From Oscillospiraceae bacterium (GTDB lineage Bacteria > Bacillota > Clostridia > Oscillospirales > Acutalibacteraceae), in the NCBI GenBank assembly GCA_910574995.1, contig CAJTCS010000001.1, positions 62,001 through 126,000 of the forward strand: a stretch of 64,000 nucleotides of DNA. Direction: 5' to 3'. Shown here one piece after another: positions 16,977 to 30,592 of the stretch. Numbering within the stretch: the stretch's first letter is position 1; each line of letters starts with the position of its first letter. The notes below the pieces were generated by a model. That model was given only the letters and a program-made list of their open reading frames with translations. It ran no database searches and was not told the origin of the DNA. Made by a program: the position numbers and the translations under genes.

Positions 16977-17066
16977 GTGTGCCGGTGCGTGCCAGGTTTT
17001 ACCGGTACCCTCTACGCGAAGGGCGATTTTTTTACCACTGGTAAAAGTCGGCACACGTCGGCACAC
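16977..17066. repeat. Nested inverted and direct repeats beside the primase remnant
   Basis: GTGTGCCG (16977-16984) pairs with either of two tandem copies of CGGCACAC (17049-17056, 17059-17066, ten-base period). Inside lies TTTTACC (17030-17036) with GGTAAAA (17040-17046). The position next to a replication-primase fragment suggests a former replication or regulatory site, but this is inference. Confidence 0.4.
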
Positions 17067-17075
17067 ACCCCGGAA

Positions 17076-17408
17076 TTACTCTAATTCTTTAAAATCTTTT
17101 ATGATAAGCCTATATCCGCAAACCATAGCTATAGGGTGGGCCGTCCTGTCAGCCCCTTGTGGGCGCTTTCGCTTGACGGTAGCAAAGCCCTCAAGCCCCC
17201 GCTTGAAGTTCGTCATACTCTCATACTGCTGGCCGTTCTGCTGGCACCAGTCCTGGTAGGCGCTGTAGACCGCCGTTGTGGTTGCCTCTGCGCGCGGGTC
17301 GGCCTCTAGGCATTCCTCCACAAAGCGTGTGAGCTTGTCGCTGTCGTGGCGGTACTCGGCGGTGGCATCAAGCACAGCCTCCGGCGGCTCAAAGCCCGTC
17401 TCTTGCAT
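17076..17408 (-). pseudogene. Remnant of a P4/D5-type phage primase-helicase (C-terminus)
   Basis: The 110 residues match the extreme C-terminal domain of phage/plasmid D5-like primases (FVEECLEADP, VYSAYQDWCQQNGQ, FKRGLEGFATVKRKRP, GYRLI). The ATPase and primase parts, several hundred residues, are missing. There is no proper start or ribosome site at its 5' end, and a plus-strand reading begins at the same point. It is therefore a deletion remnant, not a working gene. Confidence 0.7.
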
Positions 17409-17526
17409 TTCTGCTAATGAGGAACAGACCCGATACCTATTTAACGAGCGGATCGTGCCGATTTTGCGTGGCCTGTTAGATAGTTATGTTGACATGAATA
17501 GGAGGGTTCATAGTGCCCAGCATTAA
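17407..17526 (+). pseudogene. Short ORF ahead of the integrase, possibly truncated
   Basis: About 35 residues after the junction look protein-like (EEQTRYLFNERIVPILRGLLDSYVDMNRR) and end 14 bases inside the integrase gene, as coupled genes do. No ATG/GTG/TTG start is seen in frame at a sensible place, and upstream it runs into the antisense of the primase remnant. It may be the 3' end of a gene cut by the same deletion. Confidence 0.3.
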
Positions 17527-18715
17527 GGAAATGACAACCAAAGACGGCAGGCTGTTCTACAAAATCCGGGTGAGCCGGGGCCGGGAAAAGGGCTATCTCT
17601 CCACCCGCTGGTACCCGCCCGAGGGGTGGAGCCGGAAAGCCATAGAGCGGGAGCTGCACAAGCAAGCGGCAGAGTTTGAGCGCAAAGCCCAGGCCGGGGA
17701 GGTAATCAGCCGGGAGGAGCAGGCGGAAATAGACCGCCAGCGGGCCATAGAGGCGGCGAAGATAAAGACCCTCAGGCAGTACGGGGAGGGGGTCTTTATG
17801 CCCACAAAGGCCGTTACCATGAGCGAGAATGGCCGCAGCACCTACCAGGGCATACTTGACCGCTGGATATACCCGGCGCTGGGTGAGCTGAAGCTGCCTG
17901 AGATTACCCCGGCTGAAATCAGCGCTTTACTGCTCTCGATGCAAGCGGCGGGCAAGGCCCAGGGCACTTGTGTTAAGGCGTACACAGTGCTCAAGTCCAT
18001 TTTCAAAATGGCTTACCTTTCAGACCTTATCGACCGTGACCCTATGGACAAGGTAGAGCGTCCTAAGCCCCGGAAAGACGAACTAAAAAAGCCCGCCGAA
18101 GCGGAAAGCTACACGGCGGGAGAGTTGAAGTATATTCTTGACTGTCTGCAAAATGAGCCATTGAAGTGGCAAGCATTTATGTCGCTGCTCATTGACACCG
18201 GCCTACGGCGCGGCGAAGCTTGCGGGCTAAAGTGGGAGTATGTTGACCTGGACGCAAGGAAGATTACTGTAGCTGGAAATCTATGCTATACCCCAGCGAA
18301 AGGGGTCTACCTGGACACGCCCAAGAGCGGCAAGAGCCGCACGGTGGATATAGCGCCTGGGGTTGTGGCGCTCCTGCGGCAGCTCAGGCAGGAGCAAGCC
18401 GCAAGCGGATTGTCACCTTTTGTTTTCAGTCAGGAGGGCAGCCCTGCGCCCATGCACCCTCAGAGCCCCACCCGGTACATGAAAAAGTTTGCGGCGCGGT
18501 ATGGTGTGGCTGACCTTCATCCCCACAAGCTCAGGCACAGCTTTGCAAGCGTGGCAATCACCAACGGCGCGGACGTTGCCTCAGTGAGCGAGAAGCTGGG
18601 CCACGCGGACAAGTCCACGACCTTGAGAATGTACACCCACGCCGATGAGGAAAGTGTCAGGCGGGCGGGGGATATTTTCCGGCAGGCCCTGGAAGCGGCA
18701 GGGAACGGGGGATAA
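17513..18715 (+). CDS. Tyrosine recombinase (integrase) of unit A
   Basis: A 400-residue site-specific recombinase of the phage/ICE type. It has an N-terminal arm-binding domain (about 1-60), a SAM-like core-binding domain (about 80-170) and a catalytic domain with R in TGLRRGEACGL (about 229), HKLRHSFAS (about 338), LGHADKS (about 361) and the nucleophile Y in RMYTHAD (about 373). The GTG start follows AGGAGG. It lies about 150 bases from a 45-base copy of the tRNA-Thr 3' end, the usual position for an integrase using that site. All catalytic residues are intact. Confidence 0.92.
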   Translation: MPSIKEMTTKDGRLFYKIRVSRGREKGYLSTRWYPPEGWSRKAIERELHKQAAEFERKAQAGEVISREEQAEIDRQRAIEAAKIKTLRQYGEGVFMPTKAVTMSENGRSTYQGILDRWIYPALGELKLPEITPAEISALLLSMQAAGKAQGTCVKAYTVLKSIFKMAYLSDLIDRDPMDKVERPKPRKDELKKPAEAESYTAGELKYILDCLQNEPLKWQAFMSLLIDTGLRRGEACGLKWEYVDLDARKITVAGNLCYTPAKGVYLDTPKSGKSRTVDIAPGVVALLRQLRQEQAASGLSPFVFSQEGSPAPMHPQSPTRYMKKFAARYGVADLHPHKLRHSFASVAITNGADVASVSEKLGHADKSTTLRMYTHADEESVRRAGDIFRQALEAAGNGG

Positions 18716-18720
18716 AAGAA

Positions 18721-18750
18721 AAAAGGCCGGGGGCAAATCCCTGGCCTTTT
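18721..18750 (+). terminator. Terminator after the unit A integrase
   Basis: AAAAGGCC plus a G-run (18721-18733) pairs with CCCTGGCCTTTT (18739-18750), five-base loop, followed by CTTTG. Confidence 0.75.
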
Positions 18751-18830
18751 CTTTGTGGTAAAGTATTCGATATTTTGAGGGCGTATGTCCTTTTGGCGTA
18801 AGGTCAGATACAGTGATAAAAAAGAAAAAT

Positions 18831-18856
18831 CCCTAGAAACCTTACAGTTTCTAGGG
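18831..18856. terminator. Hairpin flanking the left tRNA-Thr repeat
   Basis: CCCTAGAAAC (18831-18840) pairs perfectly with GTTTCTAGGG (18847-18856), 8 bases before the attachment repeat. On the minus strand it is followed by an A/T-rich tract (ATTTTTCTTTTTT). It would end transcription leaving the tRNA copy, like the hairpin at 29161-29195. Confidence 0.5.
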
Positions 18857-18863
18857 GAAATCC

Positions 18864-18908
18864 TGGAGCTGCTATCCAGATTCGAACTGGAGACCTCATC
18901 CTTACCAA
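18864..18908 (-). repeat. Left attachment site: 45-bp copy of the tRNA-Thr 3' end
   Basis: This 45-base block is identical to 29197-29241, the 3' part of tRNA-Thr including CCA. The rest of the tRNA is absent, so it cannot be a functional tRNA. Integration by a tyrosine recombinase into a tRNA 3' end typically leaves such a duplicate at the far end of the element. It therefore marks the left end of unit B and the right end of unit A. Confidence 0.85.
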
Positions 18909-19021
18909 CACACTGGGATGTGTCCAAGTAGTGCTATCCGGCACTGTTTGGGCGTTTTTAGTGCCCGCATGTGTGGTCTATAACGGTATTCCACCCACTG
19001 TTTCCACACAGTTTTTCCGCG

Positions 19022-19042
19022 TGTGGGTCATGGTGTGGGTCA
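19022..19042 (+). repeat. Paired TGTGGGTCA motif near the left end of unit B
   Basis: Two copies of TGTGGGTCA (19022-19030, 19034-19042) in direct orientation, 12-base period. The same pair with the same period lies at 29108-29128 near the right end, and a single copy at 29034-29042. These may be integrase arm-binding sites. Confidence 0.55.
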
Positions 19043-19096
19043 AGAACCAAAACTCAAAGCAAAGGCACGGGCATAAAGACATAGAACCGCCCTCAA

Positions 19097-19119
19097 AATT
19101 TGCGCCGCTAAACAAAGAA
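19097..19119 (+). repeat. Left 23-bp direct repeat flanking the Pho module
   Basis: 22 of 23 bases match 25580-25602 in the same orientation; the core is GCTAAACAAAGAA. The pair encloses exactly the phoR-to-pstS gene block and its promoter, and nothing else. Confidence 0.65.
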
Positions 19120-19135
19120 AAGCTGTTTTTCACGC

Positions 19136-20782
19136 TCAAAACACAACCGAAACCAAAGTCCCCTCCCCGACCCTGCTGGACAGCCTGACTTCCGCCCCAT
19201 GAATCCCCGCAATATGCTTCACAATGGACAGCCCCAGCCCTGTGCCCCCCGAGGCCTTTGACCGGCTCTTATCCACCCGGAAGAACCGCTGGAACACCCG
19301 CGCCTGATACTCCTTTGGGATGCCGATGCCGGTATCCTTTACAGTCAGCACAGTGCTGTTTCCCTCTTTTTTGACGCTTACCTCCACGCTGCCACTGTTC
19401 ACATTGTACTTGATGGCGTTGTCGCATAGATTATAGACCATCTCATAGAGATACCCCGGCACCCCCATGACGCTGGCCGGCCCCCCGCTGACAGACAGAG
19501 CAACATGATTCTCCTTTGCCCTGCTTTCTAACGCCGTGACCGCCGCCCGGGCCGTCTCGTACAGGTCGACCGGCTCCATACCGGCGGGCGCTCCCTCGTC
19601 CAGCCGGGACAGGTGGATGATATCCTCCACCAGGGACATCATACGGGCCGACTCGGTGCGGATGAGATGGATGAACTCCGGCGCGTCATCAGGCTTTACC
19701 GTGCCGTCCTCCAGCATCTCCGCGCTGCCGGTGATGACCTGCAGGGGCGTTTTCAACTCGTGGGACACATTCGCGGCAAACTCCCGGCGCATCCGCTCGG
19801 CCTCCGCCTGTTCGGTCACATCGAAAGCCAGCAGGACCGTTCCTGCGGGCGCTCCGTCAGTTTGAATACAGCTCAGGTCAAGCTGATATTCCCGGCCGTC
19901 CCGCTCCATTCTGAGTTCGCTGCGCCCCTGCCCCGCCGCTTCTTCCAGCGCCGCGCTTGTGGCATGGCTGTGGTCGACGAGCAGGAAGTCCTGCCCCAGG
20001 CAGGAGCTGTCCGTATGGAAGATAGCCTTTGCCGCCGGATTAATGCTGACGATTTTACCGTCCCTGTCCAGCAGGACCAGCCCCTCGTTCATATGGGAGG
20101 TTATCTGCACGAACTCATCGGCCCGCTTTTTCAGGCTCTGCATCTGCTCCGAAATCTGCAGCCGCTGGCGGTGTATCTTTTTGAGCAGCGGGGCCAGCTC
20201 CTCGTAGGCGTCGTTTTCCAGAGGGTGGTCCAGGTCCAGCCGGTTCAGCGGCCTGACAATGCGCTTTGCAAGCCGGTGGGCCAGCAGAGCTGAAAACACC
20301 ACGGCCAGCAGGCCCACCACCGTCATGGGTTGGAGCATAGCCATTACCAGCGTGAACACGGTAGCCCGGCTGACGGAGATTCTCAGCACCGTGCCGTCAC
20401 TGAGCCTGCGGGCCCGGTAGAAGGTCTCCTCGGTCATGGTGCCGGAGAAGCGGGAGCTCTCGCCCTCGCCGCCCAGAAGCGCCTCCTGTATTTCCTCCCG
20501 GTCCCCGTGATTGCCCAGCTTCCGATAATCCTCAGCCGTGTCGAAAAGCACCGTCCCGTCCGGGGAGACCCATGTCAGGCGGTAGCTTTTGCTGTCTATC
20601 CCCTCAAGGTAGCCCATTCCGCCTTTCTCGACCCCCTGGGCCGCAAGGTACAGCTCGTCCGAAAGCTGGCCTTCCTCGATATCCCTGTAATACTGGTACA
20701 GGCAGCCCATCACAATGATGATGTTTGCCAGCAGCACCGCCGCCGACACTGCTAAAATGGAATGAAAAATACGCTTAGTCAT
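19136..20782 (-). CDS. phoR: PhoR-type sensor histidine kinase
   Basis: Membrane sensor of the phosphate-starvation system, partner of the adjacent response regulator. The 548 residues hold two transmembrane segments (about 5-28 and 150-170) bracketing an extracytoplasmic domain. A HAMP-like linker and a PAS domain (about 225-330) follow. Then come HisKA with phospho-acceptor His in FAANVSHELKTPLQ (about 340), the N box NLCDNAIKYN, G1 DTGIGIP, the F box FQRFFRVDKSRS and G2 GGTGLGLSIVKH. It overlaps phoB by 4 bases. All catalytic boxes are intact. Confidence 0.93.
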   Translation of the reverse strand: MTKRIFHSILAVSAAVLLANIIIVMGCLYQYYRDIEEGQLSDELYLAAQGVEKGGMGYLEGIDSKSYRLTWVSPDGTVLFDTAEDYRKLGNHGDREEIQEALLGGEGESSRFSGTMTEETFYRARRLSDGTVLRISVSRATVFTLVMAMLQPMTVVGLLAVVFSALLAHRLAKRIVRPLNRLDLDHPLENDAYEELAPLLKKIHRQRLQISEQMQSLKKRADEFVQITSHMNEGLVLLDRDGKIVSINPAAKAIFHTDSSCLGQDFLLVDHSHATSAALEEAAGQGRSELRMERDGREYQLDLSCIQTDGAPAGTVLLAFDVTEQAEAERMRREFAANVSHELKTPLQVITGSAEMLEDGTVKPDDAPEFIHLIRTESARMMSLVEDIIHLSRLDEGAPAGMEPVDLYETARAAVTALESRAKENHVALSVSGGPASVMGVPGYLYEMVYNLCDNAIKYNVNSGSVEVSVKKEGNSTVLTVKDTGIGIPKEYQARVFQRFFRVDKSRSKASGGTGLGLSIVKHIAGIHGAEVRLSSRVGEGTLVSVVF

Positions 20783-21450
20783 TCTGAGGCCTCCAGCCGA
20801 TAACCAACGCTTCTCACGGTCTTTATCATGGAGCCAGATTTTCCCAGCTTCTGCCGCAGGGTCTTGATGTGCATGTCAACCGTCCGGGTCTCCCCGGCGT
20901 ACTCCACGTCCCAGACCTGTGTGAGGAGCTGCTCCCGGGTGAACACCATCCCGGGTCGGGACAAAAACAGTCTCAGCAGCTCGAACTCCTTATAGGTCAG
21001 GTCCACCCGCCCGCCGTCCGCCGTTACGGTGCGCTCCCCGGTATTCATCCGAAGGCCGCCCGCCTCAATGATGTTTTCCTCTTTAGGGGCACAGCGGCGC
21101 AGCACGGCCTTCACTCTCGACACCATCTCCGTCATGCCAAAGGGCTTTGCGATGTAGTCGTCCGCGCCAATATCAAGGCCCGTGACCTTGTCGTATTCCG
21201 TGCCCTTCGCTGTCGCCATGATGACCGGTATCCCAGCGGTGGCGGTATAGGCGCGGAGCCTTTTCAGGATGGAGAGCCCGTCCTCCCCGGGCAGCATGAT
21301 GTCCAGGAGGATAAGCTGGGGCGGCTCGTTCCGGATGGCCTCAAACAGGCCGTCGCTGTCGGGAAAGCCCCTGACCTCAAACCCGGCGGCTGTAAGGGCA
21401 TAGCTCATCAGCCCCCTTATGCCGTCGTCGTCTTCCACACAGTATATCAT
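20779..21450 (-). CDS. phoB: PhoB/PhoP-type response regulator
   Basis: An OmpR-class regulator of 223 residues. The receiver domain has the acidic pair in VEDDDG and phospho-acceptor Asp in LLDIMLPGEDG (about residue 51), the conserved T/S region MATAKG and Lys in IAKPFG. The C-terminal winged-helix domain shows TYKEFELLRLFLSRPGMVF and RTVDMHIKTLRQKLG. It is encoded between phoU and phoR and would activate the pst promoter through the repeats at 25532-25571. Confidence 0.93.
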   Translation of the reverse strand: MIYCVEDDDGIRGLMSYALTAAGFEVRGFPDSDGLFEAIRNEPPQLILLDIMLPGEDGLSILKRLRAYTATAGIPVIMATAKGTEYDKVTGLDIGADDYIAKPFGMTEMVSRVKAVLRRCAPKEENIIEAGGLRMNTGERTVTADGGRVDLTYKEFELLRLFLSRPGMVFTREQLLTQVWDVEYAGETRTVDMHIKTLRQKLGKSGSMIKTVRSVGYRLEASE

Positions 21451-21472
21451 AACACTCCCCTCCTTTGCCGCT

Positions 21473-22159
21473 CTATTGTACCATATCCTTTTTCTCTTCG
21501 CAAGCCGGGTCCAGGGCCTTCTCTCCTGTCACGGAGAATATCACCCACTGGGCAATGTTCACCGCGTGGTCGCCGATGCGCTCCAGGTACTTGTCTATCA
21601 TCATCAGGTCCAGGGCGTATTCACCCTCCGAGGGCTCCCGGGCGATCCGCTTGATCAGCGAGCGCCTGACCCGCCTGAAGTAGTCGTCCAGCAGGTCGTC
21701 GCCGGCAATGACCGACGCCGCCAGGGCCGTGTCCCTTGACACATAGGCGTCTACGCTGTCGGTCACCATTTTCACAGCCGAGCGGGTCATCTCGTGGATA
21801 TGCTCCAGGCGCTCCGGGGCGTGGCCCCCGTCTATCAGGATAAGGACTATCTCGGCAATATCCTCGGCCTGGTCGCCGATGCGCTCCATGTCGGTTATGA
21901 TCTTCAGCGCGGCGGATATCTGCCTTAAATCCCTTGCCACCGGCTGCTGCTGGAGCAGGAGCTTCAGGCACAGGCTCTCTATGTCCCGCTCCATCTGGTC
22001 CGTTTCGGCGGCGATGGCGGCAACCTTCTCCGCGTGCTCCCGGCTCCCCTCGTCCAGGGCTCTTGAGGCCAGGGAGATGGCCTCCTCACAGAGGGCTCCC
22101 ATCTGTATCAGCTCCCTGTTCATCAGGGCAAGCTGCTCATCGAACCGGTTCCTCATCAT
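21473..22159 (-). CDS. phoU: PhoU phosphate-signalling protein
   Basis: A 228-residue all-helical protein with two PhoU repeats ([16 protein letters not shown] and the [16 protein letters not shown] / [16 protein letters not shown] metal-binding motifs, one per repeat). It links PstB activity to PhoR and represses the system when phosphate is ample. GGGAGG precedes the start, and the start overlaps the pstB stop by 4 bases. Confidence 0.95.
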
Positions 22160-22911
22160 CCAAACCTCCCGGTAATGTAATCCTCGGTCTTTTTCTGCTC
22201 CGGCTGGGAGAAGATCCGCTGGGTCTCCCCGAACTCAATCAGCTCCCCCAGCAGGAAGAACGCCGTGTAGTCCGAGACCCGCACCGCCTGCTGCATATTG
22301 TGGGTCACCATGACGATGGTATACTTCTCCTTGAGCTGCAACGCCAGCTCCTCTATCTTCCCGGTGGAGATGGGGTCCAGGGCGCTGGTGGGCTCGTCCA
22401 TGAGCAGCACCTTCGGCTCCACAGCCAGGGCCCGGGCGATGCACAGCCTCTGCTGCTGCCCGCCGGAGAGGCCCAGGGCGTTCTTTTTGAGCCTATCCTT
22501 CACCTCGTCCCAGATGGCCGCGCCCCGGAGGGACCGCTCCACGATATCGTCCAGCTTTGCCCGGCTTTTGACCCCGTGGGTGCGGGGGCCGTAGGCGATG
22601 TTGTCGTAAATGCTCATGGGGAAAGGGTTGGGCTTCTGGAACACCATGCCGATCTCCCGGCGAAGTCCGTTTACATCCACGTCGGGCCCATAGATATTTT
22701 TGCCTCCATATCTCAGCTCGCCGGTTATCTTCACCCCGGGGACCAGGTCGTTCATGCGGTTCAGAGTCTTGAGAAATGTGGACTTTCCACAGCCCGAGGG
22801 GCCGATAAAGGCGGTGATGCTCTTTTCATAGATGGGTATGCCCACATTTTTCAGCGCCTGGGTGCTGCTATACCATAAACAAAGGTCTTTTGCGGTGATA
22901 ATTTCCTCCAT
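22156..22911 (-). CDS. pstB: Phosphate ABC transporter ATP-binding protein PstB
   Basis: A 251-residue ATPase energising phosphate import. It shows Walker [10 protein letters not shown] (about residue 40), the Q-loop [12 protein letters not shown], signature LSGGQQQRL, Walker [14 protein letters not shown] and the switch His in VTHNMQQA. The ATG with GGAGGG upstream was preferred to an in-frame start 16 codons earlier inside pstA. The gene begins 4 bases after pstA ends. Confidence 0.96.
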
Positions 22912-22915
22912 TGGC

Positions 22916-23749
22916 TCACGCCCTCCTTTTCTTGAAATACCAGCCTGCCAGGGCGGCACAGAGGTTGACCAGCAGGGTCAGTACCAGCAGAATGACCGCG
23001 ATGGCAAAGGCCGTTTCAAACTCGCCCCGGTCCTTGGCGTAGACGTACATGGCCACCGTCAGCGAGGCCCCGGAGCTCATGAGCCCGGTGAAGAAGCCGT
23101 TGAGCACATGGGCAAACCCCGCCGTGAACAGCAGTGCCGCCGACTCGCCCAGAATACGCCCCACGGACAGGATGCAGCCGGTTATCACGCCGTCCACACA
23201 CCCGGGCAGCACCACCGTGCGCACCACCCGCCACTTGCCCGCACCCAGGCCGAAGGCCCCCTCGCGGTAGCTTTGTGGGACAGTCTTCAGGCTCTCCTGG
23301 GCCGTGCGCATGACAGTGGGCAGGTTCATGATGACCAGGGTCAGGGTCCCAGCCAGCAGGGAGGTTCCGAAGGTCCCGGCAAAGAGCATCATGCCCACGA
23401 AGCCGTAGATGATGGAGGGTATGCCCGAGAGGGTCTCGGCGGCGTACTCGATGACGGACACCAGCCGTTTGCTGGCCGCGTATTCCGTCAGGTACACCGC
23501 CGCGCCCACCCCCAGGGGCAGCACAACGGCGAGGGCCGCTAAGATAAGATAGAGGGTATTGAGAATGTCCGGCAGGATGCCGATACGGTCGTTCAGTATG
23601 CTGGGGCTGGTGGAGAGCAGCTCCCAGGTGATGTTGGGCAGCCCCTTGCAGAGTACATAGATGATGATAAACAGCGCGAAGCCACAGGTTATGGCAACGG
23701 AGAGGGCCATAAGGCCACGCATGGCGAAGGAGTATGCGTTTCGTCTCAT
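22916..23749 (-). CDS. pstA: Phosphate ABC transporter permease PstA
   Basis: A 277-residue permease with six predicted membrane helices. The cytoplasmic EAA-like loop for ATPase coupling is around [22 protein letters not shown]. It pairs with PstC to form the membrane channel. A single base separates it from pstC, so it is in the same operon. Confidence 0.94.
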
Positions 23750-23750
23750 G

Positions 23751-24668
23751 TCAGCCCTCCTTGCTCCGCTTGAGGAAGAAGTTCAGCGCGGCGTTTATCA
23801 GCAGGATGAACAGGTACAGCACCAGGGCGATGGAAAACAGCGCCTGCCTTTGCAGGCTCCCCGGACTGGAGTAGGACATCTCGCTGGCAACAGCCGTGGT
23901 GAGAAAGCGCACGCTCCCGAAGAGGGAGGGCGTGTTGGGCACGTTGCCGGAGACCATCATCACGGCCATAGCCTCGCCGATGGCCCGGCCCACCCCCAGC
24001 ACCACTGCCGCCGCGATACCGCTTTTGGCGGCGGGAGCCGTTACCTTAAAGTATGTTTCTACAGGCGTGGCACCCAGGGCCAGGGAGGCCTCCTCATATT
24101 CGTGGGGAACAGCCTCAAGCGCTGTCACTGATACCTTTATAATAGAAGGCAGAATCATGACCGCCAGCACGATAATTGCCGCCAGCAGGCTTGCACCGTC
24201 TGGGACATGGAACACCGTTCGGATTCCCGGCACCAGAACCAGCATACCCACCAGGCCGTATACCACCGAGGGGATGCCCGCCAGCAGGCTGACCGCGCTC
24301 CCCACCACGGACTTCACTTTGGGTGGGGCCAGCTTCGCAAGGTACACTGCCGTGAAGAACCCCACCGGCACGCCGAACAGGATGGCCCCCGCCGTGCCGT
24401 ATACGCTGGTGAGGATGAAGGACAAAATGCCGAACTTGGGGTCCTGGGCGGTGGACTCCCAGGTGTCTCCCAGCAGGAAGTCGAACAGGCCGATCTCCCC
24501 AATGGCCGGTATGCCGGACAGTACCAGAAAGACGGTGATGAGCAGCACACAGCCTACGGTGACAAGGCCAAGCAGGAGGAACAGGCCGTGGAAGAAGCGC
24601 TCTGTAAGCTGCCGGTGGGTCCGGGGTCTCCGGCTAAGCTGTGCGCGGGAAGTCTGTATGTTTTCCAT
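23751..24668 (-). CDS. pstC: Phosphate ABC transporter permease PstC
   Basis: A 305-residue permease with six predicted helices. Its coupling loop is around TALEAVPHEYEEASLALGATPVET, and the family motif GVGRAIGEAMAVMMVSGN follows. The N-terminal ~30 residues are Arg-rich and cytoplasmic. It starts 10 bases after pstS. Confidence 0.94.
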   Translation of the reverse strand: MENIQTSRAQLSRRPRTHRQLTERFFHGLFLLLGLVTVGCVLLITVFLVLSGIPAIGEIGLFDFLLGDTWESTAQDPKFGILSFILTSVYGTAGAILFGVPVGFFTAVYLAKLAPPKVKSVVGSAVSLLAGIPSVVYGLVGMLVLVPGIRTVFHVPDGASLLAAIIVLAVMILPSIIKVSVTALEAVPHEYEEASLALGATPVETYFKVTAPAAKSGIAAAVVLGVGRAIGEAMAVMMVSGNVPNTPSLFGSVRFLTTAVASEMSYSSPGSLQRQALFSIALVLYLFILLINAALNFFLKRSKEG

Positions 24669-24678
24669 AGGGCGGCCC

Positions 24679-25485
24679 TCAGTTTGCCGGGACCGCGCCC
24701 GCGCCGGAAATCAGCGGGGCCGCGTCGGTGGAGGTGGCGAAGTCAAAGAAGGCTTGGGCCGTTTCGGAAAGCTTGGCATCGGTTTTCGTCACTAGGATAA
24801 AGGGGCGCTGGATGACATAGCTGCCGTCCTTCACGGTATCTTCTGTGGGAGTCACGCCGTTTACCCTAATGGCCCGGACGCTGTCCTTCACCGAGGCCAA
24901 AGAGGCGTAGCCGATGGCGTCCGGGTTCTGGGCCACGGCGGTTATCACGTCGCCGGTAGAGGTCAGCTCCTGGCGGTACTGGCATTTCTCCTCGGTGCCG
25001 GTGATGGATTCAAAGCCGTCCCGGGTGCCGCTGCCCGCCTCCCGGCCGATGAGCACCACGGGAGCATCATTGCCGCCCACATCCTTCCAGTTCTCGATCT
25101 CCCCGGTATAGAGCCTGGCGATAGTCTCCGTGTCCAGGTCTGTTACGGGATTCTCCGGGTTGACGATCACGGCGATGCCGTCATAGGCCAGCACCGTGGC
25201 GGTCAGGCCCTGGGCGGCTTCCTCCTCCTTCAGCTCCCGGCTGGAGAGGCCGATATCACAACGCCCCTCCATAACGGCCTGGATGCCCGAGCCGGAGCCG
25301 GTTGGGTTGTAGGTGAAGGCAGCGCCTTCATTCTGCTCCTGGAAGGATTCTCCCAGCGCGCCGATGACTTTCTCCATGGAGGTGGAGCCGTCCGTGGAGA
25401 CAGTCCCGGCGGTTTTCTGGGTGCAGCCGGTGAGGAGCACGGCGGCGGTCAGGGCCGCCAATGCAAGTGTGATGATTTTCTTCAT
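24679..25485 (-). CDS. pstS: Phosphate-binding lipoprotein PstS
   Basis: Periplasmic-type phosphate receptor anchored as a lipoprotein. The signal peptide ends at the lipobox LTGC (Cys 21). The mature part shows STDGSTSMEKVIGAL, GSGSGIQAV and REAGSGTRDGF, which supply the serine, threonine and arginine ligands for phosphate. It is 268 residues long and the first gene of the pst operon, preceded by phosphate-box-like repeats. Confidence 0.95.
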   Translation of the reverse strand: MKKIITLALAALTAAVLLTGCTQKTAGTVSTDGSTSMEKVIGALGESFQEQNEGAAFTYNPTGSGSGIQAVMEGRCDIGLSSRELKEEEAAQGLTATVLAYDGIAVIVNPENPVTDLDTETIARLYTGEIENWKDVGGNDAPVVLIGREAGSGTRDGFESITGTEEKCQYRQELTSTGDVITAVAQNPDAIGYASLASVKDSVRAIRVNGVTPTEDTVKDGSYVIQRPFILVTKTDAKLSETAQAFFDFATSTDAAPLISGAGAVPAN

Positions 25486-25515
25486 GTTGATTTCCCCTTT
25501 CAGTTTTATGCTTTA

Positions 25516-25571
25516 ATGATAAGGGATCATTGTAAAACTCAAAAGGGGCTCTGTGTAAAATCCAGGTAAAA
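25516..25571 (-). promoter_or_regulatory. pst promoter with candidate PhoB/PhoP boxes
   Basis: On the minus strand three copies of TTTTAC occur (25571-25566, 25560-25555, 25537-25532), spaced 11 and 23 bases, about one and two helical turns. A TATCAT -10 (25521-25516) lies 10 bases after the last copy, and no good -35 is present. This is the architecture of PhoP/PhoB-activated promoters, where direct repeats replace the -35. It is 31 bases upstream of the pstS start. Confidence 0.6.
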
Positions 25572-25579
25572 CCCATAAT

Positions 25580-25602
25580 AATTTGCGCCACTAAACAAAG
25601 AA
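25580..25602 (+). repeat. Right 23-bp direct repeat flanking the Pho module
   Basis: Matches 19097-19119 except for one base (A for G at 25590). It lies immediately upstream of the pst promoter repeats and just before the accessory gene at 25618. Confidence 0.65.
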
Positions 25603-25617
25603 TACGTCGGTCAGAAA

Positions 25618-26589
25618 TTAGAATTCACTCAGCCACTCTTTAAACTCATCAAAAGAAATTTTACCGGCAGCGCATTCGTCACGCTTACCCTTTGCCGTGG
25701 CGCTCCAAGCATAGAACGCACCTGGGCTAATTTTCCCCGCCTTGATCCAGTTAAAGCGTTTCTTGTATTCCCGGCGGTACTCTTTGAATAACTCATCCGA
25801 GTTTTTCTTCTCCGCCCAGCGCTTTACCGCGCCAACCTCGCGACAGGTTCTGCCCTGAGAGTCAACAGTCAGATTGCAGAACTCCGCTGTATTGCGCCGG
25901 GGGATGGCAAAATATTTGCCACAGTACGAGCAGATACGCATACGCTGTTCCCGCTTGACGCACTCGCGGAGAGATAACTCTACGAGGTCGGAAATAGAAG
26001 TTGGGTGCAGCACTTCGGCGAAAGTACCGTTGTTGGTTCGCTCATAGACGGTAGAAATTGGTCTGAACTGGTAGGCATAGAGCGGGTTGCTTTTCTCTTT
26101 GTCGAGATAGGCTTGCAGCTTTTCCCGTACAGGTTTCTTCTTGCTGTCATCGATGTCCAGCACGTCTTCAAACAACCGCATAATTTGTTTTTGCAGAGTG
26201 TCCAGGTCGCTGGGGATGTGTCGAAGCTGCTTGTGTGGGAGATGTTCGTACACGTCCTCGCCCGGGTGATGATCCATATAGCGGAACCGTGACTGCCAGT
26301 CAAGACGTAGAAACTCGAAATAGATATGCTCCTTGGCCAGCTTTTCCAACGTACTCATTACTATTTTCTTCGAGTCGCGGTCGCGTTCCCGATAGAAATT
26401 CAGCAGGGCCTTGTCCATTTCCTTAAATAAATCTTCCATTGGCCAGATGTCCAAGTAGGTGAACCGCAAAAGGCTTTCCAGAAATGGGAAGTCTTTTTCT
26501 TTTTTGTGCGAGCGCTCGAACGTCAAATCTTTGTAAACGAAATACTCGCGACCCTCTTCAAAGTAGGTGTAGAACAGGTAGTCAGCCAT
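25618..26589 (-). CDS. Mobile-element protein with CxxC zinc-binding-like segment (DUF6076-like)
   Basis: A 323-residue protein. The C-terminal third contains CSYCGKYF, a further Cys in AEFCNL and another in RTCRE, followed by KKFKEY/KRFNWIKAG-like basic repeats. This pattern is frequent in hypothetical proteins of Clostridia integrative elements. The N-terminal 200 residues are helical and unassigned. The ATG with AGAGGAG was preferred to one 22 codons upstream. Base composition is visibly more A/T-rich than in the flanking core genes. It is transcribed divergently from the excisionase-like gene. Confidence 0.65.
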   Translation of the reverse strand: MADYLFYTYFEEGREYFVYKDLTFERSHKKEKDFPFLESLLRFTYLDIWPMEDLFKEMDKALLNFYRERDRDSKKIVMSTLEKLAKEHIYFEFLRLDWQSRFRYMDHHPGEDVYEHLPHKQLRHIPSDLDTLQKQIMRLFEDVLDIDDSKKKPVREKLQAYLDKEKSNPLYAYQFRPISTVYERTNNGTFAEVLHPTSISDLVELSLRECVKREQRMRICSYCGKYFAIPRRNTAEFCNLTVDSQGRTCREVGAVKRWAEKKNSDELFKEYRREYKKRFNWIKAGKISPGAFYAWSATAKGKRDECAAGKISFDEFKEWLSEF

Positions 26590-26636
26590 TTTATTTGCGC
26601 TCCTCTCGAAAATTAAAAATATTTTTGAAATTGTCC

Positions 26637-26665
26637 TTGACAAATGCGTTGCCATGTGTTACCAT
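26637..26665 (+). promoter_or_regulatory. Promoter of the mobilisation gene block
   Basis: TTGACA (26637-26642) and TACCAT (26660-26665), 17-base spacer, about 90 bases before the excisionase-like gene. Confidence 0.55.
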
Positions 26666-26751
26666 ATGACAGTCGGCAAATCAAACTCTGTTTAAGAATT
26701 AGTCTACAACAGCCTGAACAAAAAGTCAAGACATTTTTTAGGAGGTGCGGA

Positions 26752-26964
26752 GTGGTTCAATCAAAGTTTAAAAGCTATGAAGAACTGCCACTGTTTCTCA
26801 ATGCAAAAACAGTGGCAGAAGTCTTGGGAATCTCTATGGCTGGAGCCTATGAGTTACTGCATCAGGAGGACTTCCCGGTGCTGAGAATCGGTTCGCGCTT
26901 GGTGGTTCCCAAGGAAAAATTTCTCTCGTGGGTCGAGAGTCAGACAGGAGGTAATGAGATATGA
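26752..26964 (+). CDS. Excisionase-like helix-turn-helix protein
   Basis: A 70-residue MerR/Xis-like winged helix: LFLNAKTVAEVLGISMAGAYELL, then FPVLRIGSRLVVPKEKFLSWVE. Such proteins act as excisionases or element regulators. The GTG start follows AGGAGGTG. It overlaps the next gene by 4 bases. The intact integrase it would assist is missing from unit B. Confidence 0.75.
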   Translation: MVQSKFKSYEELPLFLNAKTVAEVLGISMAGAYELLHQEDFPVLRIGSRLVVPKEKFLSWVESQTGGNEI

Positions 26965-27323
26965 GTAATTTCTTGAGAGCGTCATGCAGCGGTGCAAAGA
27001 ATTTCTTTCCTCTGCCAAACGCAATTTTTAGCTTAGGATTGTCAGCGGGCGAGTTGGCTGTCTACGCTTATCTCATGTATTGTGAGGACAGGAAGTCACA
27101 CCAATGCTGGCCCAGCTACAAAACTATCGGCAGAGCCGTTGGCATAAGCGAGAATACGGTACGGAAATATGTACGGGAACTGGAGTACAAGACACTTATT
27201 CTGACGGAGCCTACAAAGTACGAATCTGAGAGTGGGCAGGTTCGGAACGGCAATTTGATTTTTGCGATCCTCCCCATCCAGGGAGCAGTCAAGTACCACA
27301 ACGAGTGCCAGTTAGGAAAGTAG
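26961..27323 (+). CDS. Helix-turn-helix protein, replication-initiator-like
   Basis: A 120-residue protein with FFPLPNAIFSLGLSAGELAVYAYLMYCEDR and the helix-turn-helix SYKTIGRAVGISENTVRKYVRELE. This is the N-terminal DNA-binding part seen in many element replication initiators. It resembles the protein at 62412 in architecture. It lacks a catalytic domain, so it may be a short regulator or a truncated initiator. Confidence 0.6.
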   Translation: MSNFLRASCSGAKNFFPLPNAIFSLGLSAGELAVYAYLMYCEDRKSHQCWPSYKTIGRAVGISENTVRKYVRELEYKTLILTEPTKYESESGQVRNGNLIFAILPIQGAVKYHNECQLGK

Positions 27324-27647
27324 TCGTTCGTAAGCCACTGTGAGGGCCGTGTCGGGCGATTGGAGCCGGAGGTTGAGGGAGTTTAGCGGCAACCGGCCTA
27401 GAACAGCCGTGTGGGGCATTTGTGGCGATTTGTGAGGGCGGTGTCCACGGGGACGGAAACCGCCCCAAATATGCAAATGTTTGCAACTTTATCCGCCAGA
27501 GCAGGATGCAGAAAGCGGTCAAAAAGACAAGCAGGTTAAAGCGCGGTGTCTACCGCGCAGGTGACATCGCCCGGCAGAGCCGGTCGGTAAGGAAAAATCA
27601 GGGATTACCGGCCTCTGAAATCAGGGGTCGGTCAGAAAGGAGAGCTT
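27324..27647 (+). other. Non-coding spacer with inverted repeats, candidate oriT
   Basis: Directly upstream of the mobilisation genes. GGGCGGT (27436-27442) pairs with ACCGCCC (27459-27465), and GCGCGGT (27541-27547) pairs with ACCGCGC (27552-27558). Both left arms continue as GGTGTC. Transfer origins of MobP elements usually lie beside the relaxase and contain such hairpins next to the nick site, so this is the best oriT candidate in the element. The nick site is not identified. Confidence 0.45.
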
Positions 27648-28055
27648 TTGAGCGAGAAAAAGCAAAAATATGCGTACTGGATGCGGCCGTCAATGATCGA
27701 GGAGATAGAGGAAATGCTCTCGGCGGCTAATGCCACCTCGAAAGGCGACTTCGTTTGTAAGGCAGTGGAGTTCTACATTGGCTACCTCCGGCAGCAGAAA
27801 AACATCAATTTCTTGGCTCCTATTTTGGCGGGAATAATCAAGAGCGAAGTGCGTTCCCTCGGCAAGGATGTTTGCGAAATGCTGTTCAAACTGGCGGTGG
27901 AAATTGGAATCAACAGTAACATCACGGCGGCGGTCAATGATATTTCTGATGAATCTCTGGACACGGTACGGCTCAATGTTGCCCAGGAAGTAGCGAGGGT
28001 GAATGGCATTTTGACCTTTGAAGATGCCGATGAATGGCAGAACGGGGGCGACTGA
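27648..28055 (+). CDS. MobC-like relaxosome accessory protein
   Basis: A 135-residue protein with an N-terminal ribbon-helix-helix-like segment (AYWMRPSMIEEIEEMLSAANATSKGDFVCKAVEFYIGYL) and a helical C-terminus. It overlaps the relaxase gene by 22 bases. Small RHH proteins in this position bind oriT and help the relaxase. It starts with TTG after AAAGGAG. The assignment rests on the motif type and context. Confidence 0.65.
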   Translation: MSEKKQKYAYWMRPSMIEEIEEMLSAANATSKGDFVCKAVEFYIGYLRQQKNINFLAPILAGIIKSEVRSLGKDVCEMLFKLAVEIGINSNITAAVNDISDESLDTVRLNVAQEVARVNGILTFEDADEWQNGGD

Positions 28056-29032
28056 TTATAGCGAAAATTATTGTCACCAGCAGGTATATGCGGAATTCAC
28101 CAAAGCGGTCGGCGACAAATCTGGTAAAGTATATGGGTACTCGTGAGGGTGTGGAAAGGGTGTCCCAGGGCATTGACAACACTCCTGCCACCGTCCGTCA
28201 GCAGCGATTGGTGCAGGACATCATTAAGTTCGATCGGTCGGCTAAAGATTATGGCGAGTACCATGACTACGAGAGGTCTCCCACCAAGAGCAATGCCAGC
28301 GAGTTCATCGGTGCCTTCATCGAGCGCAATGCTGACCGCGTTGGGGAGTTGGACAAGCTAGTCAGCTACATGGCGGAGCGGCCTGGAGTAGAAAAGTTGG
28401 GGCCGCATGGTCTTTTTAGTCAGATCGATGACAAGATAGATTTGGATTCCGTCGCGGAGAAAGTGGGCCAGCGCAAGGGTATCATCTGGACACACGTCAT
28501 CAGCTTGCACCGCGAGGACGCAGAGCGATTGGGGTACAATAAGGCCGAGGCATGGCGGGAATTGGTGCGGAGAAACGTCACTGAGCTGGCAGACGCTCAG
28601 AAAATCGACATCAGTAACCTGCAGTGGTATGGTGCATTTCACAACACCACGCACCACCCGCATATGCACCTGCTGGTTTATTCCAAGGATGCAAAGCAAG
28701 GGTGGCTGACGAAAAAAGGGATCGATGAACTGCGAAGTGCGCTGGGCAACGACATCTTTCGGATGGAGCAGTACAAGCTGTTCACGATGGAGACAGACAT
28801 CCGCGACCGCCTAAAGAGTGAGAGCCGGGAGGAAATTGAAAAGCTGCTTGCAAAAATCCGCGAGTCATATGCTACGACAGCACTGCAAAATGGTGTAGAC
28901 GTAAAAACCGTCTCCTCTATGCTCGGCCACTACGATGCAGGATTCACACTCCGCACATACACCCACGCCACCCGCCAAAAGCAGGAACAGGCCGCTGAGA
29001 AGATGGGGAGCTTCATGCAGCAGGTCAGGTAA
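28034..29032 (+). CDS. In-frame fusion: MobP3-type relaxase N-terminus + integrase C-terminus
   Basis: Residues 1 to about 270 look like a MobP3/VirD2-class relaxase: early SRYMRNSP and KYMGTREGVERV, then the metal-binding histidines in HHPHMHLLVYS (about residue 206). From about residue 275 the sequence switches to a tyrosine recombinase tail: SYATTALQNGVDVKTVSSMLGHY and the catalytic Tyr in RTYTHAT (about 308). The C-terminal part lacks the recombinase Arg and core. The simplest reading is a deletion that removed the relaxase C-terminus, intervening genes and most of the integrase. Relaxase nicking may persist; recombination cannot. No stop or frameshift interrupts it. Confidence 0.8.
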   Translation: MAERGRLIIAKIIVTSRYMRNSPKRSATNLVKYMGTREGVERVSQGIDNTPATVRQQRLVQDIIKFDRSAKDYGEYHDYERSPTKSNASEFIGAFIERNADRVGELDKLVSYMAERPGVEKLGPHGLFSQIDDKIDLDSVAEKVGQRKGIIWTHVISLHREDAERLGYNKAEAWRELVRRNVTELADAQKIDISNLQWYGAFHNTTHHPHMHLLVYSKDAKQGWLTKKGIDELRSALGNDIFRMEQYKLFTMETDIRDRLKSESREEIEKLLAKIRESYATTALQNGVDVKTVSSMLGHYDAGFTLRTYTHATRQKQEQAAEKMGSFMQQVR

Positions 29033-29052
29033 ATGTGGGTCAAAAAAGCGCA

Positions 29053-29092
29053 AAACGGCTGGAACTTCCTCTCCAGAAGTTTCCAGCCGTTT
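29053..29092 (+). terminator. Long hairpin after the fusion gene
   Basis: AAACGGCTGGAA (29053-29064) pairs perfectly with TTCCAGCCGTTT (29081-29092), and CTTC/GAAG extend it inward. Only a weak T tract follows. It may be a terminator or part of the attachment region. Confidence 0.5.
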
Positions 29093-29107
29093 CCGTTCGT
29101 TTCGGCG

Positions 29108-29128
29108 TGTGGGTCAAGGTGTGGGTCA
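29108..29128 (+). repeat. Paired TGTGGGTCA motif near the right end of unit B
   Basis: Copies at 29108-29116 and 29120-29128, same spacing as at 19022-19042, plus a single copy at 29034-29042. Candidate integrase arm sites beside the right attachment site. Confidence 0.55.
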
Positions 29129-29160
29129 AGCACGATTTTGGAGGATTTTCTAGACGAAGC

Positions 29161-29195
29161 AAAACCCCCGCAGACCGCAGTCTTACGGGGGTTTT
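29161..29195 (-). terminator. Terminator after tRNA-Thr
   Basis: AAAACCCCCG (29161-29170) pairs with CGGGGGTTTT (29186-29195). On the minus strand it is immediately downstream of the tRNA CCA end and ends in TTTT. Confidence 0.75.
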
Positions 29196-29196
29196 G

Positions 29197-29272
29197 TGGA
29201 GCTGCTATCCAGATTCGAACTGGAGACCTCATCCTTACCAAGGATGTGCTCTACCACCTGAGCCATAGCAGC
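29197..29272 (-). tRNA. tRNA-Thr (GGT anticodon)
   Basis: A 76-base cloverleaf with encoded CCA: acceptor GCTGCTA/TAGCAGC, anticodon stem CATCC/GGATG around loop TTGGTAA (anticodon GGT), T-loop TTCGAAT. The 3' 45 bases are duplicated at 18864-18908. The gene is the integration target of the mobile units and has been kept intact by the incoming copy. Confidence 0.95.
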
Positions 29273-29311
29273 GCATAGTTTGCACACGGGCAACCGCAGG
29301 CAAACTATAGT

Positions 29312-29388
29312 TGGCGACCCGGAACGGGCTCGAACCGTCGACCTCTAGCGTGACAGGCTAGCGTTCTAACCAACTGAACTACCGGGCC
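29312..29388 (-). tRNA. tRNA-Asp (GTC anticodon)
   Basis: A 77-base cloverleaf with encoded CCA: acceptor GGCCCGG/CCGGGTC, anticodon stem CTAGC/GCTAG around CTGTCAC (anticodon GTC), T-loop TTCGAGC. It is 39 bases upstream of tRNA-Thr in the same transcript. Confidence 0.95.
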
Positions 29389-29422
29389 ATCCGCACCCAG
29401 AATGCCCTGGACGACAGTTGAC

Positions 29423-29451
29423 ATTATACACCCTCTTGCGGGGGATGTCAA
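29423..29451 (-). promoter_or_regulatory. Perfect consensus promoter for the tRNA-Asp/tRNA-Thr operon
   Basis: On the minus strand TTGACA (29451-29446) and TATAAT (29428-29423) are 17 bases apart, an exact vegetative consensus. Confidence 0.88.
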
Positions 29452-29522
29452 CCCTATATTTGCAGATATCCCAACTTTTTTTCAGGAAGGCGCGGGGCAG
29501 GCGCCGGCCGGGGCGGCTGGTC

Positions 29523-29551
29523 TTGCAATAAGCGGGCCGCCGTGGTATAAT
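29523..29551 (+). promoter_or_regulatory. Sigma-A promoter of the fatty-acid cluster
   Basis: TTGCAA (29523-29528) and TATAAT (29546-29551), 17-base spacer. A GC-rich hairpin (CCCCCTCCC with GGGAGGGGG, about 29567-29599) lies in the leader before fabK and might attenuate transcription. No FapR-like palindrome was seen. Confidence 0.78.
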
Positions 29552-29644
29552 CTGTTTTACAAACGGGCCCCCTCCCCTTTTTTTGGGAAGGGAGGGGGCA
29601 GGATAAAATGAAACCAAGCGGTACGGCGGAAAGGAAGCGGAACC

Positions 29645-30592
29645 ATGATACAATCACCCTTATGCGGGATGCTGGGCATTGAATACCCCATTTTCCAGGG
29701 GGGCATGGCCTGGATATCCGACGGGAAGCTGGCGGCGGCCGTCTCCAACGGGGGGGGGCTGGGCATCATTTCGGCCATGAACGCCAACGCGGACTATGTG
29801 AAGGAGCAGATAGCCCTGGCGCGCTCCCTTACAGACAAGCCCTTTGGGGTAAACATTATGCTGATGTCCCCCTTTGCCCAGGAGGTGGCCCAGGCGGCGG
29901 CCGACGCAAAGGTGGCGGTGGTCACCACCGGCGCGGGCAACCCTTCCAAATATATGCCCATGTGGCTGGAGGCCGGCGTCAAGGTCATCCCGGTGGTAGC
30001 CTCTGTGGGCATGGCGAAGCTGGTGACGAAAGCCGGGGCCGCCGCCGTGATTGCCGAGGGGGGCGAATCGGGCGGGCACGTGGGCGAACTGACCACCATG
30101 GTGCTGGTGCCCCAGGTGTGCGACGCCACACACCTGCCCGTGCTGGCGGCCGGGGGCATCGGCGACGGCCGTGGCGTTGCCGCCGCTTTGATGCTGGGGG
30201 CCGTGGGCGTGCAGGTGGGCACCCGGTTCCTGGTGGCGCAGGAGTGCGGCGTGCACCCCAATTATAAGAAGAAAGTCTTGAAAGCCAACGACATCGCCAC
30301 CATGACCACCGGCAAGCGCCTGGGCCATCCGGTGCGGCAGATTAAGAACCAGTTTGCCAAGGATTTCCTGAAGGCCGAGTATGACAGCAGCGTATCGGAC
30401 GAGGAGCTGGAGAAGCTGGGCAGCGGGGCCTTGTACCGGGCGGCTGTGCTGGGCGACGAGAAGACCGGCGATTTCCTGGCCGGGCAGGTGGCGGGCATGG
30501 TGGGCAAAGAGCAGCCCGCCGCCGAGATCATACAAGAAATGTTTACGCAAGCCGAAGAAGTGCTGAAGGGGGCGGGCAGATGGGTAAAATAG
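29645..30592 (+). CDS. fabK: Enoyl-ACP reductase II (FMN-dependent)
   Basis: A 315-residue TIM-barrel flavoprotein catalysing the last step of fatty-acid elongation. It shows LGIEYPIFQGGMAWI, GGGLGIISA, the phosphate-binding EGGESGGHVG and AAGGIGDGRGVAAAL, and the final GTRFL segment. These fit FabK of Clostridia and streptococci rather than the related nitronate monooxygenases, and the fab context supports this. It replaces FabI. It overlaps fabD by 13 bases. Confidence 0.92.
   Translation: MIQSPLCGMLGIEYPIFQGGMAWISDGKLAAAVSNGGGLGIISAMNANADYVKEQIALARSLTDKPFGVNIMLMSPFAQEVAQAAADAKVAVVTTGAGNPSKYMPMWLEAGVKVIPVVASVGMAKLVTKAGAAAVIAEGGESGGHVGELTTMVLVPQVCDATHLPVLAAGGIGDGRGVAAALMLGAVGVQVGTRFLVAQECGVHPNYKKKVLKANDIATMTTGKRLGHPVRQIKNQFAKDFLKAEYDSSVSDEELEKLGSGALYRAAVLGDEKTGDFLAGQVAGMVGKEQPAAEIIQEMFTQAEEVLKGAGRWVK

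Follow-up and report, generated by a model that had tools for sequence, protein, structure and literature searches.

Integrative mobilizable elements (IMEs) with MOBP3 relaxases have been reported from gut genomes (PMC6907783), and the accessible part of that report makes no mention of phosphate or of direct repeats (0 occurrences). Tycheposons of Prochlorococcus and Methylophilaceae are tRNA-anchored tyrosine-recombinase elements with nutrient genes (PMC10872708). In HIMB59, phosphate islands hold pstSCAB-phoU with or without phoB-phoR, which varies by island and not by phylogeny (PMC10734472). The pdif modules of Acinetobacter plasmids are described as exchangeable modules with short sites around them. 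In this work, a stretch of 64,000 nucleotides from an Oscillospiraceae bacterium (contig CAJTCS010000001.1, positions 62,001 to 126,000; hereafter the window) was analysed, in which a phosphate uptake and sensing block, pst-phoU-phoB-phoR, lies between two copies of a motif of about 30 bp, named SITE here, at a tRNA-Thr gene. We consider it likely, with good confidence, that this block is the cargo of a small IME at the tRNA-Thr 3' end, belonging to a modular family whose parts are bounded by SITE.

The element resembles the gut MOBP3 IMEs, as the accessible part of their description presents them, in its tyrosine integrase, tRNA target, relaxase without a seen transfer apparatus and cargo (PMC6907783), whereas the genus-wide boundary motif and the complete pst-pho cargo set it apart. 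By analogy it may be placed beside the tycheposons, being likewise a tRNA-anchored tyrosine-recombinase element with nutrient cargo; the host phylum, the relaxase module and the SITE-bounded modules differ, and kinship of the recombinases is meant as analogy only. The cargo parallels the variable unit of the HIMB59 islands, but those islands occupy the same genome position and the available text on them has no mention of an integrase (0 occurrences; PMC10734472), whereas here the mobile element can be identified. The likeness to pdif modules is in the short sites around exchangeable modules. Unlike pdif, SITE does not resemble dif in sequence (as judged against a Firmicutes dif consensus), lies mostly in one orientation (54 of 58 neighbouring pairs within 25 kb) and belongs to integrated elements, not plasmids. 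Neither the SITE motif nor pst as cargo of this kind was found described in full-text literature searches, which covered titles and abstract starts and lay mostly outside subscription papers.

The pst-pho block and the motif at its ends

An earlier note on this DNA had placed seven pst-phoU-phoB-phoR genes inside a tRNA-Thr element, and this was borne out: the tRNA-Thr gene and an exact 45-bp copy of its 3' end, the attachment site (att), bound the interval (Table 1). Genes were named by NCBIfam curated cut-offs and Pfam domain scans. PstS, PstC, PstA, PstB and PhoU were recognized by curated models and are linked to a two-component pair, as expected of a Pst-Pho system; the names PhoB and PhoR come from the best-ranked families, which score below cut-offs, and from operon context. 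The 23-bp direct repeats that were said to bracket the block are present at 19097-19119 and 25580-25602 (22/23 identical). Just inside the right one, where the same note had put the pst promoter, TTTTACC, TTTTACA and TTTTACA stand 86, 75 and 52 bp 5' of pstS, and these repeats may be Pho boxes.

The 23-bp repeat is part of the larger SITE motif and does not arise by chance, since the 27-bp motif that contains it occurs 21 times in the source genome (G000; 3.45 Mb, 99.98% complete) and its reversed pattern 0 times. The genus set comprised 29 genomes including G000, 20 of them rated high-quality, and was scanned with the 27-bp pattern at ≤3 mismatches, the same pattern read backwards serving as control. 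Sites were found in 19/29 genomes (25 in G023), and the reversed pattern had 0 matches in the genus scan. The ten genomes without a site at this threshold include G008, with 100% completeness. In a family sample of 398 genomes, 5 had matches; among the 392 outside the genus there was one, with a single site at 3 mismatches. The exact SITE pattern had 0 matches in IMG/VR, no SITE match was obtained in plasmids, and phages gave three 18-bp matches at E 0.6. Among 80 named loci searched for SITE at other pst loci (≤6 mismatches), it was present only at L058 (G001). In a matrix of 95 distinct sites (≤5 mismatches) from the fetched stretches of related genomes, conservation runs from -1 to +28 with sharp edges and near-random flanks, and positions -1, 27 and 28 are conserved though they lie outside the selection range of 0-26. 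No clear dyad is seen in the motif, the mean pairing being 0.39 and 0.38 at best. In G023, a single contig of 3.80 Mb, 24 of the 25 SITEs fall within 0.57 Mb (C1 1.86-2.43 Mb; loci L044-L046, L170-L172, L180, L182, L214-L219, L221-L222).

Module boundaries and movement of the block within the genus

The comparison shows that the borders between modules are marked by SITE, mostly in one orientation, in elements that differ in integrase and tRNA target. Over 1.02 Mb of fetched sequence with 91 SITEs, every end of homology between stretches was collected. At SITE, which makes up 0.39% of bases, 520 of 4254 ends were located; with the SITEs displaced by 0.2-3 kb, 100 draws averaged 28.5 ends and reached 59 at most. 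Likewise, 73 of the 91 SITEs had a homology end, compared with 8.9 when displaced. As the stretches had been selected for SITE, the mobilization module or pst, the displaced-SITE control is the fair comparison. When the flanks were classed, one and the same right flank was paired with 10 left classes over 14 sites, and a single left flank was paired with 7 right classes over 8 sites.

SITEs separate the integrase-att, mobilization and cargo modules of elements at tRNA-Thr, -Met, -Tyr and -Trp. The window element belongs to a genus-wide family built from three kinds of separable module: an integrase module that includes att, a mobilization module (DUF6076, HTH, relaxase) and a cargo module. The mobilization module measures 3801-3810 bp from SITE to SITE in five elements (tRNA-Thr, tRNA-Met). 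SITE intervals with an integrase and tRNA-Tyr measure 1883, 1886 and 1898 bp, with variants of 2030 bp (a partial integrase match) and 5409 bp (two integrase matches). We examined 33 integrase genes, 24-100% identical to the G001 integrase; 23 of them have SITE within 300 bp upstream (at 73-146 bp), and in 21 of these the distance is 95-111 bp. Two further observations concern the integrase side. An integrase-like open reading frame (ORF) at L216 (G023 C1 2157579-2158520) has SITE 28 bp upstream and gives a match only from residue 120 onward, which looks as though a module boundary had encroached on a gene. In tRNA-Tyr elements (L224, L180, L237, L240, L219), a small protein starting MDSEN(M/I)QRISLYLD recurs beside SITE, adjacent to the integrase module; for one copy, Pfam gave no match.

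The pst-pho system is one among many SITE-bounded cargoes. No integrase, mobilization or tRNA marker is present in 30 of the 54 same-strand SITE intervals. ORFs were surveyed in 17 SITE-bounded segments, and 20 proteins from 10 of them were scanned; 17 had Pfam matches at 1e-6, one being an integrase. These cargoes include a cluster of alpha-rhamnosidase, response regulator, sugar ABC transporter and GH127, a FGGY sugar kinase, MATE and APH-family proteins, an aldo/keto reductase, an S-layer protein, and an M16C peptidase near an ABC exporter; segments A3 (G000) and I (G023) hold the same genes.

In the source genome, PstS gave one match at E ≤ 0.001, and PhoU occurs once as a stand-alone protein, its other domains being in two ORFs that also hold Na/Pi-cotransporter domains. 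The earlier note had left two readings, a captured core operon and a Pho system that is both additional and transferable; the transferable cargo stands, whereas a second copy does not, given these single matches. PstC exceeds the curated cut-off in 16/29 genus genomes. Among the 20 high-quality ones it does so in 11, is split across two contigs in G022 and has no match over the cut-off in 8, so high-affinity phosphate uptake is accessory in this genus.

Near-identical pst blocks are found in three other species. G001 has the whole element at the same tRNA-Thr, G023 has the element in rearranged form, and in G005 the block lies outside the element, in a stretch of 39.8 kb that has neither a tRNA nor a SITE. 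Synteny in all relatives, which the note had named, together with a sole pst operon, as evidence against mobile cargo, is thus not seen. Nor did elements lacking the module hold the single-copy 23-bp site that it had proposed to look for; instead, several motif copies surround other cargoes in pst-less relatives. The genes flanking one side of the G005 block are kept in G021, G027 and G008, with no pst match in their compared stretches. The blastn match between the window and G005 spans 19119-25571, beginning at the right-hand edge of SITE 1 and stopping 4 bp short of SITE 2, and the match between G005 and G001 begins about 19 bp inside SITE 1; by alignment, the unit common to G005 and the element copies is the segment between the SITEs.

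Divergence was referred to a single core locus (nitronate monooxygenase, fabD and neighbours) that adjoins the element in G000. Identity among G000, G001, G005 and G023 is 92.2-99.5% for the pst block and 74.2-78.6% for the core locus; for G001 and G023 the values are 99.5% and 74%, and their mobilization modules are 99.4% identical over the comparable part. Synonymous divergence (dS) between these two genomes is 0.00-0.06 in the seven pst-pho genes and 0.90 and 2.75 in two core genes, where values above about 1 are saturated. Such low dS relative to core genes shows interspecies transfer. Judged from these sequences, both the pst block and the element have crossed species boundaries, and the block also occurs on its own.

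An inversion in G023 covers the pst cargo and part of the mobilization module (L044-L045; C1 2424869 and 2433497); one of its breakpoints coincides with the right-hand edge of SITE 1. This breakpoint is not relied on as a case of site-specific cutting, as both novel junctions carry short microhomology. A different pst block occurs in G001 C137 (L288, L047, L290) and G011 C150 (L289, L048, L291). The two copies are 97.0% identical over 6964 bp, their PstS is about 70% identical to that of the window, and the stretches share no further match >200 bp. No bracketing repeat was found except one 10-bp match in G001, and the block seems to be another pst unit moving on its own. In the genus, close (69-100%) and distant (about 36-41%) PstS proteins occur in non-overlapping genome sets, and genomes with the distant form have 0-2 SITEs each.

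Possible roles of SITE

The window could be explained by a core operon with coincidental repeats, pst-pho being ancestral at the locus and a mobile element having inserted around it. The sole PstS in the genome would be expected of a core operon, and the block adjoins a degraded element; but the block sits between tRNA-Thr and its att copy, and the same repeats recur at cargo ends genus-wide. Together with the patchy PstC (8/20 high-quality genomes without one over the cut-off) and the pst-pho dS far under that of core genes, the recurrence of SITE leads us to count this explanation as refuted; it is scarcely credible. For SITE itself, we hypothesize, with a confidence that falls just short of even, that it serves as substrate for a module-exchange system, uncharacterised and almost confined to this genus, that acts in trans across unrelated integrases. 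Such a system would interchange integrase-att modules, mobilization modules and nutrient operons (phosphate uptake and sensing, rhamnoside and arabinoside use, sugar kinase, exporters) between co-resident elements. Somewhat less probable, yet a serious possibility, is a functional motif, for example an operator upstream of the integrase gene, whose copies offer short homology for ordinary or illegitimate recombination and so produce the breaks. The distance of 95-111 bp upstream of 21 integrase genes would suit a regulatory place, the lack of a clear dyad is consistent with it, and the G023 inversion has short microhomology at both of its novel junctions. On the other hand, SITE is also found at both cargo-module ends and at the DUF6076 3' end, with no gene starting there, and it is common to integrases as low as 24% identity. 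Its conservation is sharp-edged over about 30 bp, which is short for homologous exchange.

A dif-like site for host Xer recombinases would follow the logic of pdif modules as presented in the accessible accounts, in which modules end in short repeats, an element has several of these, and cargo is shuffled. This is unlikely: SITE differs from the Firmicutes dif consensus, and ten genus genomes are without SITE, including the complete G008, in which a chromosomal dif would be expected. That consensus itself matched in 3/29 genus genomes, each time at 3 mismatches, and the dif of the genus was not found with it. Even less likely is an origin of transfer (oriT) nicked by the MobP3 relaxase, modules being lost or gained when a nick made at one copy is followed by termination at another. 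Directly repeated copies in elements with a MobP3 relaxase would fit; however, elements hold several SITEs, and a separate segment at 27334-27438 is conserved alone and is the better oriT candidate. Here 12 matches, each about 100 bp long or longer, fall solely within this part of the query, and two of them lie in SITE intervals without a relaxase marker. Integron cassettes, which are defined by attC and an integron integrase, do not fit: SITE is 30 bp without a clear dyad, and integron-integrase models scored far below cut-off against the two integrase ORFs of the window. A role of SITE as integrase arm site was set aside, the GTGTGGGTCAAG-like repeats adjoining both att cores.

In the favoured reading of mobile, SITE-bounded modules, an excised circle would hold modules separated by directly repeated SITEs. 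Recombination of SITE with SITE between co-resident elements, via a site-specific recombinase or over short homology, would swap cargo; in this way a self-contained nutrient operon, promoter and sensor included, could come to lie in different carriers. The pst-pho cargo would then give the host high-affinity phosphate uptake under its own control. Several points weigh against this reading. The analysis identified no recombinase for SITE and saw neither an excised circle nor an excised module. The usual tyrosine-recombinase core is a dyad, and the lack of a clear one in SITE speaks against a classical core. Homology does not end at 18 of the 91 SITEs, in stretches that were picked for SITE or the mobilization module, and the orientation is opposite in 4 of the 58 neighbouring pairs. 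Of the integrase genes, 10/33 are without SITE ≤300 bp upstream at ≤5 mismatches, with an approximate copy in five of the ten. The block in G005 implies that it can also move, or may have been inherited, without SITE, and the divergence baseline is one core locus. The cargo reading makes phosphate-starvation physiology an exchangeable trait within a gut genus, and SITE provides a concrete, alignable boundary signal for finding cargo that annotation would call core genes. If SITE is indeed a recombination substrate, commensal Clostridia would possess a system that exchanges metabolic operons as cassettes.

Features and state of the element at tRNA-Thr

Table 1. Positions of the block, the SITE copies and the remaining element features in the window.
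Feature	Position	Strand	Remark
att copy, left element end	18864..18908	-	exact 45-bp duplicate of tRNA-Thr 3' end
Two GTGTGGGTCAAG-like repeats, left end	19021..19044	+	one mismatched; possible integrase arm sites
SITE copy 1, left cargo boundary	19093..19119	+	0 mismatches
phoR-like sensor kinase	19136..20782	-	HisKA, HATPase_c, PAS; below equivalog cut-offs
phoB-like response regulator	20779..21450	-	TIGR02154 best-ranked, below cut-off
phoU	21473..22159	-	over NCBIfam curated cut-off
pstB ATPase	22156..22959	-	over NCBIfam curated cut-off
pstA permease	22916..23749	-	over NCBIfam curated cut-off
pstC permease	23751..24668	-	over NCBIfam curated cut-off
pstS phosphate-binding protein	24679..25485	-	TIGR02136, over NCBIfam curated cut-off
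Three Pho-box-like TTTTAC(A/C) repeats	25531..25571	-	upstream of pstS
SITE copy 2, cargo/mobilization-module boundary	25576..25602	+	3 mismatches
DUF6076 protein	25618..26655	-	first mobilization-module gene
HTH_17 protein	26752..26964	+	excisionase-like
HTH_36 protein	26961..27323	+	
Conserved segment of about 100 bp	27334..27438		candidate oriT; strand unassigned
Small protein without Pfam match	27648..28055	+	at MobC position
MobP3/MobL relaxase N-part fused to integrase C-terminal part	28034..29032	+	junction 28870/28871
Two GTGTGGGTCAAG repeats, right end	29107..29130	+	possible integrase arm sites
tRNA-Thr(ggt), integration target	29197..29272	-	3' 45 bp (29197-29241) = right att

As in an IME, an integrase is combined with a duplicated att of 45 bp and with an own relaxase. 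The integrase is full in G001 and reduced to its C-terminal part in the window, where the relaxase (MobP3, 264.6 bits against a cut-off of 150, plus MobL) is also truncated. The deletion at 28870/28871 took the remaining relaxase, SITE 3 and most of the integrase, all of which the counterpart segment of G001 keeps (remaining relaxase, third SITE, full integrase). With most of the integrase deleted, self-excision is improbable and the G000 element probably no longer excises by itself; both att copies persist, and integrases of neighbours might act on it. No conjugation apparatus was found in the Pfam-scanned ORFs of the element, with ORFs <80 aa unscanned and no dedicated search for a type IV secretion system. 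Rfam at gathering scores gave two tRNAs and nothing else over 17000-30000.

A second tyrosine integrase (400 aa) at 17513-18715 ends about 150 bp left of the att copy, pointing to what may be another element in tandem, and an integrase 84% identical to it occupies the same place in G005 C2. In G001, the att copy (L042, C60 near 50920) differs from its tRNA-Thr at three bases in and beside the T-arm, and that half may therefore derive from a different tRNA-Thr gene.

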